From: Desulfomarina profundi | GTDB taxonomy: Bacteria; Desulfobacterota; Desulfobulbia; Desulfobulbales; Desulfocapsaceae | Direction: 5' to 3' | Assembly: GCF_019703855.1 (NCBI RefSeq) | Contig: NZ_AP024086.1 | Span: 3,864,501-3,928,500 of the forward strand | DNA length: 64,000 bases | Shown here: in pieces, positions 43,135 through 48,197 of the stretch | How the letters are laid out: the number at the start of each line of letters is the position of its first letter | How positions within the stretch are numbered: the first letter of the stretch is position 1 | The notes under the pieces: model-generated | The model's input: the letters and a program-made list of their open reading frames with translations, nothing else | The model's database searches: none | What the model was told of the DNA's origin: nothing | Position numbers and translations under genes: made by a program

Positions 43135-43524
43135 ATGTCAGGATTTACGCCAAAAAGACAGCTGGTGCTGGAAATTATCGAGTCTTCGGATCGTCCTCTC
43201 TCCTCTCAGGAGATCTTTGCCATGAGAAAAGGGGAGATTAATCTGGCGACTGTTTACAGGAGTGTCAACTACCTGGAAAAACAGAACCTGATAGAGGGTT
43301 TTTCTCTTTTCTCCGAGTCAAAGGGGACAGTGCGGTTCTATTTTCGGAAAAGAAGGCCACATCTCCATTTCTTTTTCTGCGGGCGATGTCAATCGTTTAC
43401 GCCATTTCATGACTGTATCTTCAGCAGGCAGTCTCGCACTGAAATCGAGGAGAAATACCAGCATAAGATCCAGTCGCACGTTCTTTACTTTACCGGTTTA
43501 TGTCGTGACTGCCAGTCAGACTGA
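43135..43524 (+). CDS. zur: Fur-family regulator, probably Zur
   Basis: 129 aa. The winged-helix part is FTPKRQLVLEIIESSDRPLS with EINLATVYRSVNYLEK, the recognition helix of Fur proteins. The C-terminus has the metal sites: HLHFFFCGRCQ with a Cys pair and LCRDCQ at the end, which bind structural zinc. Its place as last gene of the znuACB operon suggests zinc control of that operon. Iron- or manganese-sensing relatives cannot be excluded from sequence alone. Confidence 0.82.
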   Translation: MSGFTPKRQLVLEIIESSDRPLSSQEIFAMRKGEINLATVYRSVNYLEKQNLIEGFSLFSESKGTVRFYFRKRRPHLHFFFCGRCQSFTPFHDCIFSRQSRTEIEEKYQHKIQSHVLYFTGLCRDCQSD

Positions 43525-43526
43525 GA

Positions 43527-43961
43527 CTATTTTTTCTTTTTCCCCTTTTTTTCTTTTTTCTTCTTTTTGTTTTTCTTTTTTCCCTTCTTTTTTTTCTTTT
43601 TTTCCTCTTTCTCTTTTTTCTTTTTCTTGTTTTTCTTCCCGTCCTTTTTTTTCTTTTTTTTCTTTTTTACAGTTGTGTTTTCAGGTTGAGAGGTTTGAGA
43701 GGAAGGCTCTTCTGTAGATGTGGCGGGAAGCGTGTGACCGGGGAAAAGGTCCATGCGTTTTTCCTTGAAGAGGACAAGGAGATAACGGAGCTGGCCGATG
43801 GTCAGTTTACTTAATTCAGCACTTTTTACCTGAGTGTGGCCGTCATCCAGGAGGAGAAGGGCTTTGGCCCTCCGGCTGAACAGACCGATGTTGAGTTTTG
43901 TGATGTATTCGCAGGATTCTCTTTCCTTCTGATTCAACAGGTTTCCCGTGGTGGTTGCCAT
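43527..43961 (-). CDS. HTH-like protein with extreme polylysine tail
   Basis: 144 aa from the ATG at 43961, behind a perfect AAGGAGG site. Residues 1-70 contain an HTH-like segment: SRRAKALLLLDDGHTQVKSA and SKLTIGQLRYLLVLFKEKRMDL, as in IS630-type HTH units. After a Ser/Thr-rich linker, the last 56 residues are almost only Lys, Glu, Gly, Asn and Asp, read from A-rich DNA. Such tails bind DNA, RNA or polyphosphate. It ends 2 bp from the convergent zur stop. Function unknown; the repeat-rich tail may vary in length between strains. Confidence 0.65.
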   Translation of the reverse strand: MATTTGNLLNQKERESCEYITKLNIGLFSRRAKALLLLDDGHTQVKSAELSKLTIGQLRYLLVLFKEKRMDLFPGHTLPATSTEEPSSQTSQPENTTVKKKKKKKKDGKKNKKKKKEKEEKKKKKKGKKKNKKKKKEKKGKKKK

Positions 43962-44160
43962 ATGTCCTCCTTGAAATGATGTCGGCAAAATGCAGAGAAG
44001 CAGCCCGGGTGGCATGGAGACTGCAGAAAAAGGTCGAATTATTACCTCTGAAAACAGTTTATGGCTGAAACAATAGCATTTCCTGAAAAAAAAATAAATG
44101 GTCTCCCTGGAAGCAGATGAGGAAAATCATGAAGAAATTTTTTACGAATAATGCTAGTGT

Positions 44161-44301
44161 AGTATCTGTCCATAAACAGCCTTTTTCCCCTGATTCTTCG
44201 TTGTTGTGGAAATTTTATCCTTGGAATATCAGATAGATGTCTGTGGTAAAATTTTCTTGCGCCCGATTCAGAATAAAAAAGCTCATTTCTGGACAGATAC
44301 T
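44161..44301 (+). mobile_element. 141-bp inverted-repeat element (MITE-like)
   Basis: AGTATCTGTCCATAAA at 44161-44176 and TTTCTGGACAGATACT at 44286-44301 are inverted 16-bp repeats with one mismatch. No protein is encoded and no clear target duplication is seen. Its right end, with the A-run before it, is repeated at 5895-5920. The element lies in the 378-bp gap between the Lys-tailed gene and purL, which holds nothing else I can assign. Confidence 0.6.
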
Positions 44302-44393: not shown

Positions 44394-47300
44394 ATGGGTG
44401 TGACAATCACACGACTGTATCGAAAAATTGACGGGGAACAGGCATACTGTTTCAATATAGAATCGACAAGAACACTCACCGCAGAAGAAATGAATTGCCT
44501 GCGAATGATTCTGGCAGACGGTTTTCTTATTGATACCGTTACCACAGAGCCGGTTCTCACCGGAAACCGGGTCGTAGAGGTGGGGCCCCGCCTGAATTTC
44601 GCTACAGCCTGGTCTTCAAATATGGTGTCCATCTGCCAGGCGACAGGACTCGGGATAGTTACCCGTGTGGAAAGATCAAGGCGATATCGTGTGCCGGAGG
44701 GGAGTAATCTCCAGGAATTTATTGACAGTCACCATGACCGGATGACCGAGTGTCACTACCCGGAACCGTTGAGCAGTTTCGAGACGGGGGTTGTGCCCGA
44801 GCCGGTATACGAAGTGGATCTTCTGGGCAGGGGGGCTGAGGCTTTTGATGATATTCCCGGTATCTCCATGGATGAATGGGATCGCAATCTCTATTACGAT
44901 TATTTTGTCAACAGGCAGAAAAGAAATCCGACGATTGTGGAGATTATGGATCTCAATAATGCCAATTCCGAGCATTCCCGCCACGGTTTTTTTAAGGGGA
45001 AACAGATAATAGATGGTCAGGAAATGGAGGGAACGCTTTTTGACCTGGTGACCGCAACTCTTGATGCGAACCCGAAAGGGTCGCTTATTGCTTTCAAGGA
45101 TAATTCGAGTGTTATCAGTGGCTATGGAATAGATACCATTATTCCTGATCAACCGGGTATCCCGTCGTTATTTTCTCTTCGGTCAGTACTGTACCATCCT
45201 CTGTTGACCGCGGAAACACATAATTTCCCTACAGGTGTGGCTCCTTTTCCCGGGGCAGAGACTGGAACAGGCGGGCGGATTCGTGACGTGCAGGGTACGG
45301 GAAAGGGTGGCTTTGTTATCGCCGGAACAGCCGGATATTGCGTTGGAAATCTGAATATTCCCGGATATGCGCTTCCCTGGGAAAATGATTATCCCCGTCC
45401 TGACAACCTGGCCTCCCCCCTTGAGATTGAAATTGAGGCCAGTAACGGTGCGTCAGATTACGGCAACAAGTTTGGAGAGCCCCTGATCCAGGGTTTTACC
45501 CGTTCCTTTGATATGCGTCTGGAAAATGGTGAGAGGTGGGGATTTGTAAAACCCATCATGTTTACCGCCGGAGTAGGCCAGATTGATTCCCGGTTGACGG
45601 ATAAGGCAAGGGAAGAAAAAGGTATGCTCATCGTTCAGGTGGGTGGTCCAGCGTATCGAGTCGGTTTCGGCGGCGGGGCGGCTTCAAGCATGTTGCAGGG
45701 CGAGAATGAATCGAGCCTTGATTTTAATGCGGTGCAGCGTGGTGACGCGGAAATGGAGCAGAAGATGAATCGTGTTATCAGAGCCTGCAACGAGATGGGT
45801 GAGCGGACCCTGGTTGATGTGATTCACGACCAGGGTGCCGGAGGTCCTGCCAATGTATTGAAGGAACTGGTGGAAAACTCGGGCGGTTGGGTAGAGGTTC
45901 GCAATATCAGAGTGGGCGATCCCACCATGTCTGTGCTTGAAATATATGTTGCCGAATACCAGGAGCGTAACGGGTTTTTGATCAGACCGGAAAATATTGA
46001 GAGGTTTTTGGCAATCTGTGAAAGGGAAAAAGTCAACTGCGAGGTCCTGGGCAGGGTTACCGGGGATCTTCGTTTTGTCCTCCACGATTCCCATGATGAC
46101 TCTACACCCGTGGATATTGAGCTTGACGTACTGCTCGGAGATATTCCCCAGAAAACCTTTGAGGACAAAAGAAAAAGTCTTGCCGGTCAACCGGTTGAGC
46201 TTCCCGATGGAGCAACGGTTGAAGGGGTGCTGCATGACGTGCTTCGCCTGGTGTCGGTGGGATCCAAAAGGTTTCTCACCAGCAAGGTTGACCGGGCCGT
46301 TACCGGTCTTATCGCCAGACAGCAGTGTTGCGGTCCCCTGCAGTTGACCGTGGGAAACGTTGCCGTAGTTGCCCAGTCCCATTTTGGTCTGACAGGGATA
46401 GCGACAGCTATTGGAGAGCAGTCTATCAAGATGCTGGTTGATCCTGCCGCCGGTGCCCGGATGGCGGTGGGAGAGGCGTTGACAAACCTGGTCTGGGTAA
46501 AAATTGAAGATCCCCTGCAGATTAAGTGTTCCGCCAACTGGATGTGGGCGCCGAAACTGCCTGGAGAAGGAGCGGCAATCTATGATGCCGCCAGGGGTAT
46601 GAGAGACCTGATGATTGAGGTGGGCATGGCGGTGGATGGTGGCAAGGACAGTCTTTCCATGGCCACCATGGTTGGTGATGAAACGGTGAAATCCCCAAGG
46701 GAACTGGTTATTTCCGCCTATGCAGCCGTACCTGATATCAGAAAAAGCGTTACTCCGGATATTAAGAACGTCGGTTCAAGGCTGCTTTTTATTGATCTTT
46801 CGGGTCGTAATCGCCTGGGAGGCAGTAGTCTTGCACAGGTGCTGGGGCAACTGGGGGATGAAAGTCCTGACGTGGAGGATCCGGGTCTGTTGAAAAGGGG
46901 TTTTGCCGCAGTGCAGGAAGTGATCGCTCAAGAATTGATTTCAGCTGGACATGACAGAAGCGACGGGGGACTGATTACCACCCTGCTGGAGATGGCCTTT
47001 AGTGGCAATTGTGGACTGGATCTGGATCTGGGTGGAAAAGACTCTGTTTTCAGCGCACTTTTTTCCGAGGAACTCGGTTTTGTCGTGGAATGTGTCGAAG
47101 AGAAGCTGCAGGAGGTGAAGGCGCTGTTTGACAGGGCGGATGTTGAGTGCCGGGAAATCGGCAGGACTACGAAAGAGAAACGGATTCTCCTGCGCTATAA
47201 CGAGGAGGTGGTTCTTGATAAGAACATGGTTGAATTACGCAGCTGGTGGGAGGAAACCAGTCACCGTCTTGACCTGCTTCAGGCTGATCCGGGTTGTGTG

Positions 47301-48197
47301 AAGGAGGAAAAAGAATCGATCCATGACCGCAGGGGGCCGGAATATATTATCCCCTTTACGCCGGAACCGGCCCCGGCAGCCCTGCTGAAGAAGGAGAATA
47401 AGCCAAAGGTTGCAATCCTGAGAGACGAAGGATCCAATTCGGATCGGGAGATGAGTTCCGCCTTCTTTGCCGCCGGTTTTGAAGTATGGGATGTCTGTAT
47501 GCAGGATCTGCTCTCCGGAAATATGACATTGGACGGATTCAGAGGACTTGCTGCGGTTGGTGGCTTTTCTTATGCTGATGTGCCGGAATCCGCTAAAGGA
47601 TGGGCTGCAACCATTTTGTTCAATGACCGGCTGAAAGAGATGTTCAGGGAATTTTATAAGCGTCCTGATACTTTTACTCTGGGGGTCTGTAACGGGTGCC
47701 AGCTTTTTGGTTTGCTCGGTTGGGTACCGGAGCCAGGACTTGCATCTGAAGTGCAGCCCCGTTTTGTCAAAAACAGATCCGGCCGATTTGAGTCCCGCTG
47801 GTCAACGGTGAAGGTCAGGAGAAGTCCGGCCATCATGTTGAAGGGCATGGATGGATTGGTTTTTGGTATCCATGTGGATCATGGTGAGGGAAGACTTCAT
47901 TTCCCGGATACGGGAATTCTGGAGAAGGTGAAACAGAACAATCTTACTCCGTTGGTCTATGTGGACGATGAGGGTAGAAGTACGGAAAAATATCCCTTCA
48001 ATCCCAACGGCTCCCCGGAAGGGTTGGCGGCACTCTGTTCGGCTGACGGTAGGCACCTGGCGCTCATGCCTCATCCGGAAAGGGTATTTCTGCCCTGGCA
48101 GGCCCATTATCTGCCAGAGGAGATGAAAGAACTCAAGGTCTCCCCCTGGTTTCAGATGTTCAGAAACAGCTATGACTGGTGCACATCGGGTTTCTGA
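44394..48197 (+). CDS. purL: phosphoribosylformylglycinamidine synthase, long single-chain form
   Basis: 1267 aa. Makes FGAM from FGAR, glutamine and ATP in purine synthesis. The FGAM-synthase part has ANSEHSRHGFFKG (about 180-193), ETHNFPTGVAPFPGAETGTG and DKAREEKGMLIVQVGGPAYR, and the second half has GGKDSLSMA. The C-terminal class I glutaminase domain has its Cys in LGVCNGCQLF (Cys1099) and the late HPER motif. This is the fused type known from enteric bacteria rather than the split PurSLQ. The start at 44394 follows AAGGAAG. It stands alone among unrelated genes. Confidence 0.93.
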   Translation: MGVTITRLYRKIDGEQAYCFNIESTRTLTAEEMNCLRMILADGFLIDTVTTEPVLTGNRVVEVGPRLNFATAWSSNMVSICQATGLGIVTRVERSRRYRVPEGSNLQEFIDSHHDRMTECHYPEPLSSFETGVVPEPVYEVDLLGRGAEAFDDIPGISMDEWDRNLYYDYFVNRQKRNPTIVEIMDLNNANSEHSRHGFFKGKQIIDGQEMEGTLFDLVTATLDANPKGSLIAFKDNSSVISGYGIDTIIPDQPGIPSLFSLRSVLYHPLLTAETHNFPTGVAPFPGAETGTGGRIRDVQGTGKGGFVIAGTAGYCVGNLNIPGYALPWENDYPRPDNLASPLEIEIEASNGASDYGNKFGEPLIQGFTRSFDMRLENGERWGFVKPIMFTAGVGQIDSRLTDKAREEKGMLIVQVGGPAYRVGFGGGAASSMLQGENESSLDFNAVQRGDAEMEQKMNRVIRACNEMGERTLVDVIHDQGAGGPANVLKELVENSGGWVEVRNIRVGDPTMSVLEIYVAEYQERNGFLIRPENIERFLAICEREKVNCEVLGRVTGDLRFVLHDSHDDSTPVDIELDVLLGDIPQKTFEDKRKSLAGQPVELPDGATVEGVLHDVLRLVSVGSKRFLTSKVDRAVTGLIARQQCCGPLQLTVGNVAVVAQSHFGLTGIATAIGEQSIKMLVDPAAGARMAVGEALTNLVWVKIEDPLQIKCSANWMWAPKLPGEGAAIYDAARGMRDLMIEVGMAVDGGKDSLSMATMVGDETVKSPRELVISAYAAVPDIRKSVTPDIKNVGSRLLFIDLSGRNRLGGSSLAQVLGQLGDESPDVEDPGLLKRGFAAVQEVIAQELISAGHDRSDGGLITTLLEMAFSGNCGLDLDLGGKDSVFSALFSEELGFVVECVEEKLQEVKALFDRADVECREIGRTTKEKRILLRYNEEVVLDKNMVELRSWWEETSHRLDLLQADPGCVKEEKESIHDRRGPEYIIPFTPEPAPAALLKKENKPKVAILRDEGSNSDREMSSAFFAAGFEVWDVCMQDLLSGNMTLDGFRGLAAVGGFSYADVPESAKGWAATILFNDRLKEMFREFYKRPDTFTLGVCNGCQLFGLLGWVPEPGLASEVQPRFVKNRSGRFESRWSTVKVRRSPAIMLKGMDGLVFGIHVDHGEGRLHFPDTGILEKVKQNNLTPLVYVDDEGRSTEKYPFNPNGSPEGLAALCSADGRHLALMPHPERVFLPWQAHYLPEEMKELKVSPWFQMFRNSYDWCTSGF

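Follow-up and report, generated by a model that had tools for sequence, protein, structure and literature searches.

Gene, start codon and neighbours

The window analysed here is the whole 64,000-nucleotide (64-kb) stretch of DNA, which belongs to a genome of a single 4.3-Mb contig. It holds a small gene whose product of 144 amino acids consists of a confidently predicted helix-turn-helix (HTH) domain at residues 11-70, a linker and a lysine tail at residues 99-144. The features of the locus, with their basis in brackets, are the following:

43527..43961, minus strand: coding sequence of 144 amino acids, HTH domain and lysine-rich tail (open reading frame and relatives)
43962..43972, minus strand: ribosome-binding site AAGGAGG, directly 5' of the ATG (sequence)
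43740..43934, minus strand: predicted HTH domain, residues 10-74, with helices 11-23, 26-39, 44-50 and 55-72 (structure model)
43530..43667, minus strand: lysine-rich tail, residues 99-144 (translation, composition, structure model)
43135..43524, plus strand: Fur-family gene, zur-like, convergent neighbour (annotation)
43495..43541, plus strand: candidate intrinsic zur terminator, made of a hairpin that spans the zur stop and, after it, the T-rich tract complementary to the tail end (folding)
44394..48197, plus strand: purL (FGAM synthase), oriented divergently from the gene and conserved beside it in four genera (annotation, comparison of loci)

The start ATG is at 43961 and AAGGAGGACAT stands directly before it. 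A more upstream ATG in the same reading frame would give a product of 162 amino acids. The inner ATG is where the alignment of the relatives begins, and in four relatives of the same genus it is preceded by GGAGG- or GGGGGA-like sites. A strong ribosome site had been noticed in an earlier reading of the sequence alone.

The Fur-family gene is called zur-like because of its place after genes for znuA, an ABC ATPase and an ABC-3 permease. The sequence-only reading placed the gene next to zur. This is true of the window and of locus L048 but not of L049 and L051, so that zur adjoins the gene in two of the four readable loci of the genus (L050 stops short of the zur side and is not counted). It had also been proposed that the T-rich tract on the other strand ends the zur transcript. 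About 140 bases of plus strand past the zur stop are rich in T, being the complement of the lysine tail. The hairpin at 43495-43528 has a folding energy of −12.1 kcal/mol, equalled in 2 of 200 shuffles, and AUUUUUUCUUUUU follows directly 3' of it. On the other side, a terminator consensus scan does not list this hairpin, the 221-base fold of the zur-stop region is not unusually stable overall (z −0.81), and relative L048 has the T-tract with no clear hairpin (z −0.24). It is thus plausible, for the window only, that a zur terminator takes its U-tract from the complement of the coding sequence of the tail gene.

The start of purL lies 432 bases from the HTH-tail gene in the window. purL is divergent in all eight loci with a readable flank, which come from four genera (the window, L048, L049, L050 and L052-L055); L051, with 303 bases on that flank and no purL start seen, and L060, with 252 bases, are left out of this count. 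Such a conserved arrangement would be expected of a sequence-specific local regulator, acting for instance on divergent purL or on its own gene, with the tail adding non-specific affinity. This is the main rival to the reading that we prefer below, and we consider it rather unlikely. In genus g12 the gene stands in 5/5 loci beside a gene from a single cluster, of which the member tested is CobA/CobO/BtuR, and in other families different genes adjoin it. With neighbours varying in this way across lineages, neither purL nor zur is a general partner. Moreover, matches in 54 genomes left 30 purL loci for comparison; seven of these have the HTH-tail gene, and the remaining 23 have no nearby open reading frame with at least 14 lysines in 40 residues, so purL manages without an HTH-tail protein.

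A promoter-like block, TAATGCTAG, is conserved 5' of purL (window 44130-44165), and a TTCCTG-type element lies upstream of it in some relatives. As an operator for the HTH-tail protein the block was rejected: it sits at the position of the purL promoter and is present in the gene-less purL loci L079, L082 and L088, which also counts against a local regulator. A single sub-threshold Rfam match to a snoRNA at 44109-44200 was judged to be chance.

The HTH domain and its family

The HTH was modelled with AlphaFold2 from 17 aligned family sequences (alignment A4; members G031 and G244 left out). Block mean pLDDT is 90-96 for residues 11-70, 68 for residues 71-80 and below 50 for the linker, residues 81-108. 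R31, A32, L35, G41, Q57 and F73 are invariant in the 17 aligned sequences. Q57, R59 and Y60 are conserved in the predicted recognition helix (residues 55-72, approximately); this speaks for the sequence-specific local regulator discussed above, and it is important to note that these residues fit such a regulator as well as they fit the reading that we prefer.

In structure alignment of the model, the closest solved folds are those of sigma region 4, namely 4g8x_A (Z 5.2, rmsd 3.0, 55 aligned residues) and 3vfz_A (Z 4.8, rmsd 3.0, 54 aligned residues), with PAX-6 and KorA ranking lower; Z scores of 4-5 are of a size that common arrangements of helices also give. Foldseek with the HTH model gave no match at E≤0.001. 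As judged from the model, the HTH fold class is convincing, and closer kinship to any solved structure is not. What is folded in the model is an HTH made entirely of helices and not an HU fold.

In a Pfam search at E≤1 with the HTH parts of 15 members, HTH_23 was matched by 12, HTH_29 by 11 and HTH_28 by 10, with best E values of 2e-7 to 5e-7. The sequence of the 144-residue protein itself has no match to an HTH family in Pfam or NCBIfam at E≤1; its HTH is therefore visible only through the relatives and the structure model. Taken together, these matches suggest a homeodomain-like HTH such as IS630-type transposases and sigma region 4 possess. HU is absent from the Pfam matches of the 144-residue protein at E≤1 and, for the 15 HTH parts, from the 22 families listed, and the same Pfam searches at E≤1, with the protein and with the 15 HTH parts, returned no H1 globular domain.

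Scans of the whole protein gave nine Pfam and six NCBIfam matches with E values of 0.0077 or worse, far under the curated cut-offs and for the most part in the low-complexity half. No other domain, catalytic or ligand-binding, was found in these scans. In PHROGs, the 15 HTH parts match no family at E≤0.01, and the whole protein has three matches, at the tail region, with E values of 0.29 or worse. A marginal PADLOC match to mad1 in one of three proteins (E 0.0014) was judged to be that of a generic HTH. The sole match in a search of solved-structure sequences, 8vd6 'CAP REPEAT', consists of five near-identical repeats of about 6 bits each and is not evidence of kinship. None of the curated families in Pfam, NCBIfam, PHROGs or PADLOC accounts for the 144-residue protein.

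With the HTH part as query, 15 of 97 related genomes match, the source genome among them, and all 15 open reading frames carry a lysine-rich tail. A profile search of the order, read as the Desulfobulbales, to which Desulfocapsaceae belongs, gave matches in 25 of 257 genomes: 19 clear members with a tail (E at most 1.6e-18; L032-L035 are the four additional to the first 15), one partial copy (L036) and five without a tail (L037-L041). The class-level search covered the same 257 genomes. A DDE_3 transposase domain is present in L037 and a double HTH of transposase type in each of L038-L040; no family is matched by L041. Of the 19 members, 16 belong to the source organism's own family and the others to two further families, and their hosts are presumably sulfur-cycling bacteria. 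A clear member is absent from 238 of the 257 genomes, incomplete genomes counted; the distribution is patchy and the protein is thus not a universal nucleoid protein of the order. In a sample of the phylum (395 genomes) there were five matches, the own genome and four with transposase-type-looking HTH open reading frames, three of which (L042, L043, L045) have HTH_23/29-type domains. No relatives were found on plasmids, phages or viral contigs. A profile of eight members gave 23 candidate stretches, seven of them named MAG records labelled Desulfobulbaceae, Desulfocapsaceae, Desulfobacterales or Deltaproteobacteria, with no genomes beyond those already counted. Profile comparison relates the two subgroups, the own one and that of genus g12, with 98.9 % probability (E 2.3e-17).

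In genus g63, a relative of 65 amino acids (L036:1492-1686 in reverse-complement coordinates) begins inside the HTH and has no lysine tail; the copy may be broken or the assembly wrong at this place.

The sequence-only reading had taken the N-terminus to be conserved, and this is supported by the HTH being kept in relatives and by its codons. In the HTH part of five same-genus genes, pairwise differences at codon positions 1/2/3 number 130/84/370. dN/dS is 0.05-0.22 in seven of ten pairs and three pairs are saturated; dS exceeds 1 in six of the seven, which makes dN/dS rough. The codon pattern indicates that the HTH part is under purifying constraint.

These results bear on the view that the gene is a fragment of a transposase in decay, with no meaning in its A-rich end. 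Weak matches to the IS630 model NF033545 are seen in nine of 15 members (best E 1.4e-4), although the 144-residue protein itself has none, and the weakest profile matches are mostly transposase-type open reading frames. However, the gene has been kept in different genera and in three families, under coding constraint and in a conserved neighbourhood, the tail is kept in 19/19 members, and the Pfam scan of the whole protein at E≤1 finds no transposase domain, the open reading frame ending in the lysine tail instead. In a tree of 27 HTHs (L036, L040, L041 and L046 left out) a branch with support 97/93 separates the 19 family members from eight transposase-type rows; six of 24 inner branches in this tree are well supported, and four of the transposase-type rows are long. 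A transposase fragment is already largely refuted and hardly credible.

The lysine-rich tail

The tail of residues 99-144 contains 36 K, 4 E, 3 G, 2 N and 1 D, and by this count it has 46 residues, shorter than the about 56 given earlier. Block mean pLDDT for the tail is 37-70; the model draws residues 110-143 as one helix at 55-70, which is not to be trusted. The low pLDDT suggests that the tail is disordered. Past the FP motif, the tails of 15 members are 65-114 residues long, with 20-51 % K and a net charge of +14 to +36. Across the family, sequence and length of the tails drift and they align poorly; composition and basic charge are kept. A small HTH protein with a charged C-terminal tail, as described in the sequence-only reading, is confirmed as real by the members with tails in 19 of 257 genomes of the order. 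Since every one of the 19 family HTHs runs on into a lysine-rich tail, the tail is neither an artefact nor without homologues.

It had been suggested that replication slippage could change the tail length. No run of nine or more A occurs in the tails of 17 of the 19 members (G031 and G244 not included), where shuffling of each tail's own AAA/AAG codons gives a mean of 20.6 and a minimum of 6 in 1000 shuffles. Runs of 8, the longest present, remain. Control counts of A- or T-runs in the whole window are mixed: 20 of length 8, three of length 9 and none longer, as compared to 4.6, 1.65 and about 0.8 expected from a Markov model. With three runs of at least nine against about 2.5 expected, the window is not short of them, and the drop from length 8 to length 9 is steep. 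Tails lacking the longest A-runs argue against hypermutable tracts, but slippage may still occur. From residue 98 onwards, the +1 frame has one stop, its first codon, and the +2 frame has none; as the shifted frames are nearly stop-free, a slip within the tail would still yield basic residues. Counted over the whole part past the FP motif, the shifted frames of the 144-residue gene have one stop each, and those of 16 relatives have 1-7 and 2-15.

The exact pattern AAR x8 has two occurrences in the own genome, one in this gene and the other in a small lysine-rich open reading frame that contains cysteine. The reversed control pattern likewise matches twice, so this result says little. The second lysine-run open reading frame lies at L073:1426-1569 (minus strand; about G000:C1:2588553-2588696), and from an internal ATG its short product reads MGKKKKKKKKKDKAKKKCCGKFLKKKGKRCSKCPDG, with a cysteine motif.

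Concerning what such a tail would hold, nucleic acid, as first proposed, is the likeliest partner. Polycationic tails bind both RNA and DNA, and an RNA- or ribosome-associated protein could have its tail on RNA and its HTH on rRNA or a protein partner. HTHs of this homeodomain-like type are typically on DNA, however, and there is no translation gene among the annotated part of the neighbours; we regard this role as quite improbable. Polyphosphate had been named as another ligand. Charge alone speaks for a polyphosphate-binding protein, the HTH would be left unexplained and the annotated part of the neighbours includes no polyphosphate gene, so that the proposal finds very little credit with us.

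Proposed role and known systems

We lean towards the view that this is a small, lineage-specific protein that binds chromosomal DNA in part of the Desulfobulbales, as either a low-specificity nucleoid-associated protein or a broad regulator. DNA binding, its low specificity, compaction, abundance and disorder of the tail in the cell are properties that we infer. The homeodomain-like HTH would contact DNA through the recognition helix at about residues 55-72. The nearly pure lysine, disordered tail could neutralise the DNA backbone and raise the affinity, and the polycation might clamp DNA, or spread along or bridge neighbouring DNA, as expected of a low-specificity nucleoid protein or a broad regulator. 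This mode of action of the tail is proposed by analogy with what is reported for the lysine-rich tails of HupB and MDP1. HupB without its C-terminal domain is reported to show no nucleoid association (PMC5676037), and the disordered tail of MDP1 to be required for DNA compaction (PMC5974015).

A more far-reaching and less likely version is that of a lineage-specific bacterial chromatin protein in which a transposase-type HTH has been joined to a polylysine tail and which, in part of the Desulfobulbales, coats or compacts the chromosome as a convergent counterpart of histone H1. In linker histone H1, an HTH-type globular domain is followed by a lysine-rich, disordered C-terminal tail. The protein described here is similar to H1 in this architecture only: H1 is a winged helix that acts in chromatin with nucleosomes, there is no Pfam match to it, and the likeness would be convergent. 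The IS630 transposases have an N-terminal HTH that may be of the same homeodomain-like kind, with weak profile similarity, whereas in our family no catalytic DDE domain was found, a lysine tail stands in its place and the HTHs form a separate branch of the tree. Chlamydial Hc2 is described as a lysine-rich DNA-binding protein whose length varies with the number of lysine-rich pentamers (PMC2848022). The likeness, compared by description only, lies in the richness in lysine and the variable length. To our knowledge Hc2 has no HTH domain.

Our literature searches brought up no study that we recognised as being on a family with an HTH and a polylysine tail. Lysine tails on small DNA-binding proteins are already known; the combination of an HTH with such a tail in this lineage is a variation on them. 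We know of no well-studied nucleoid proteins in the Desulfobulbales, and the searches brought up no study of one. If the preferred reading is true, an unnamed family gains a testable role in nucleoid structure. In the literature covered, the bacterial lysine-tail proteins that have been studied most are actinobacterial ones with the HU fold. Mycobacterial HupB/MDP1 and the spore-associated HU of Streptomyces likewise combine a small folded DNA-binding domain with a long lysine-rich tail, and for HU-type proteins it is reported that nucleoid binding or compaction depends on this tail (PMC5676037, PMC5974015, PMC3784963). The folded part here is an HTH, unlike that of HupB and HupS, and the tail is nearly pure lysine. 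If the proposed role is right, the tail principle of the HU proteins would have been grafted on a different DNA-reading domain in the Desulfobulbales.
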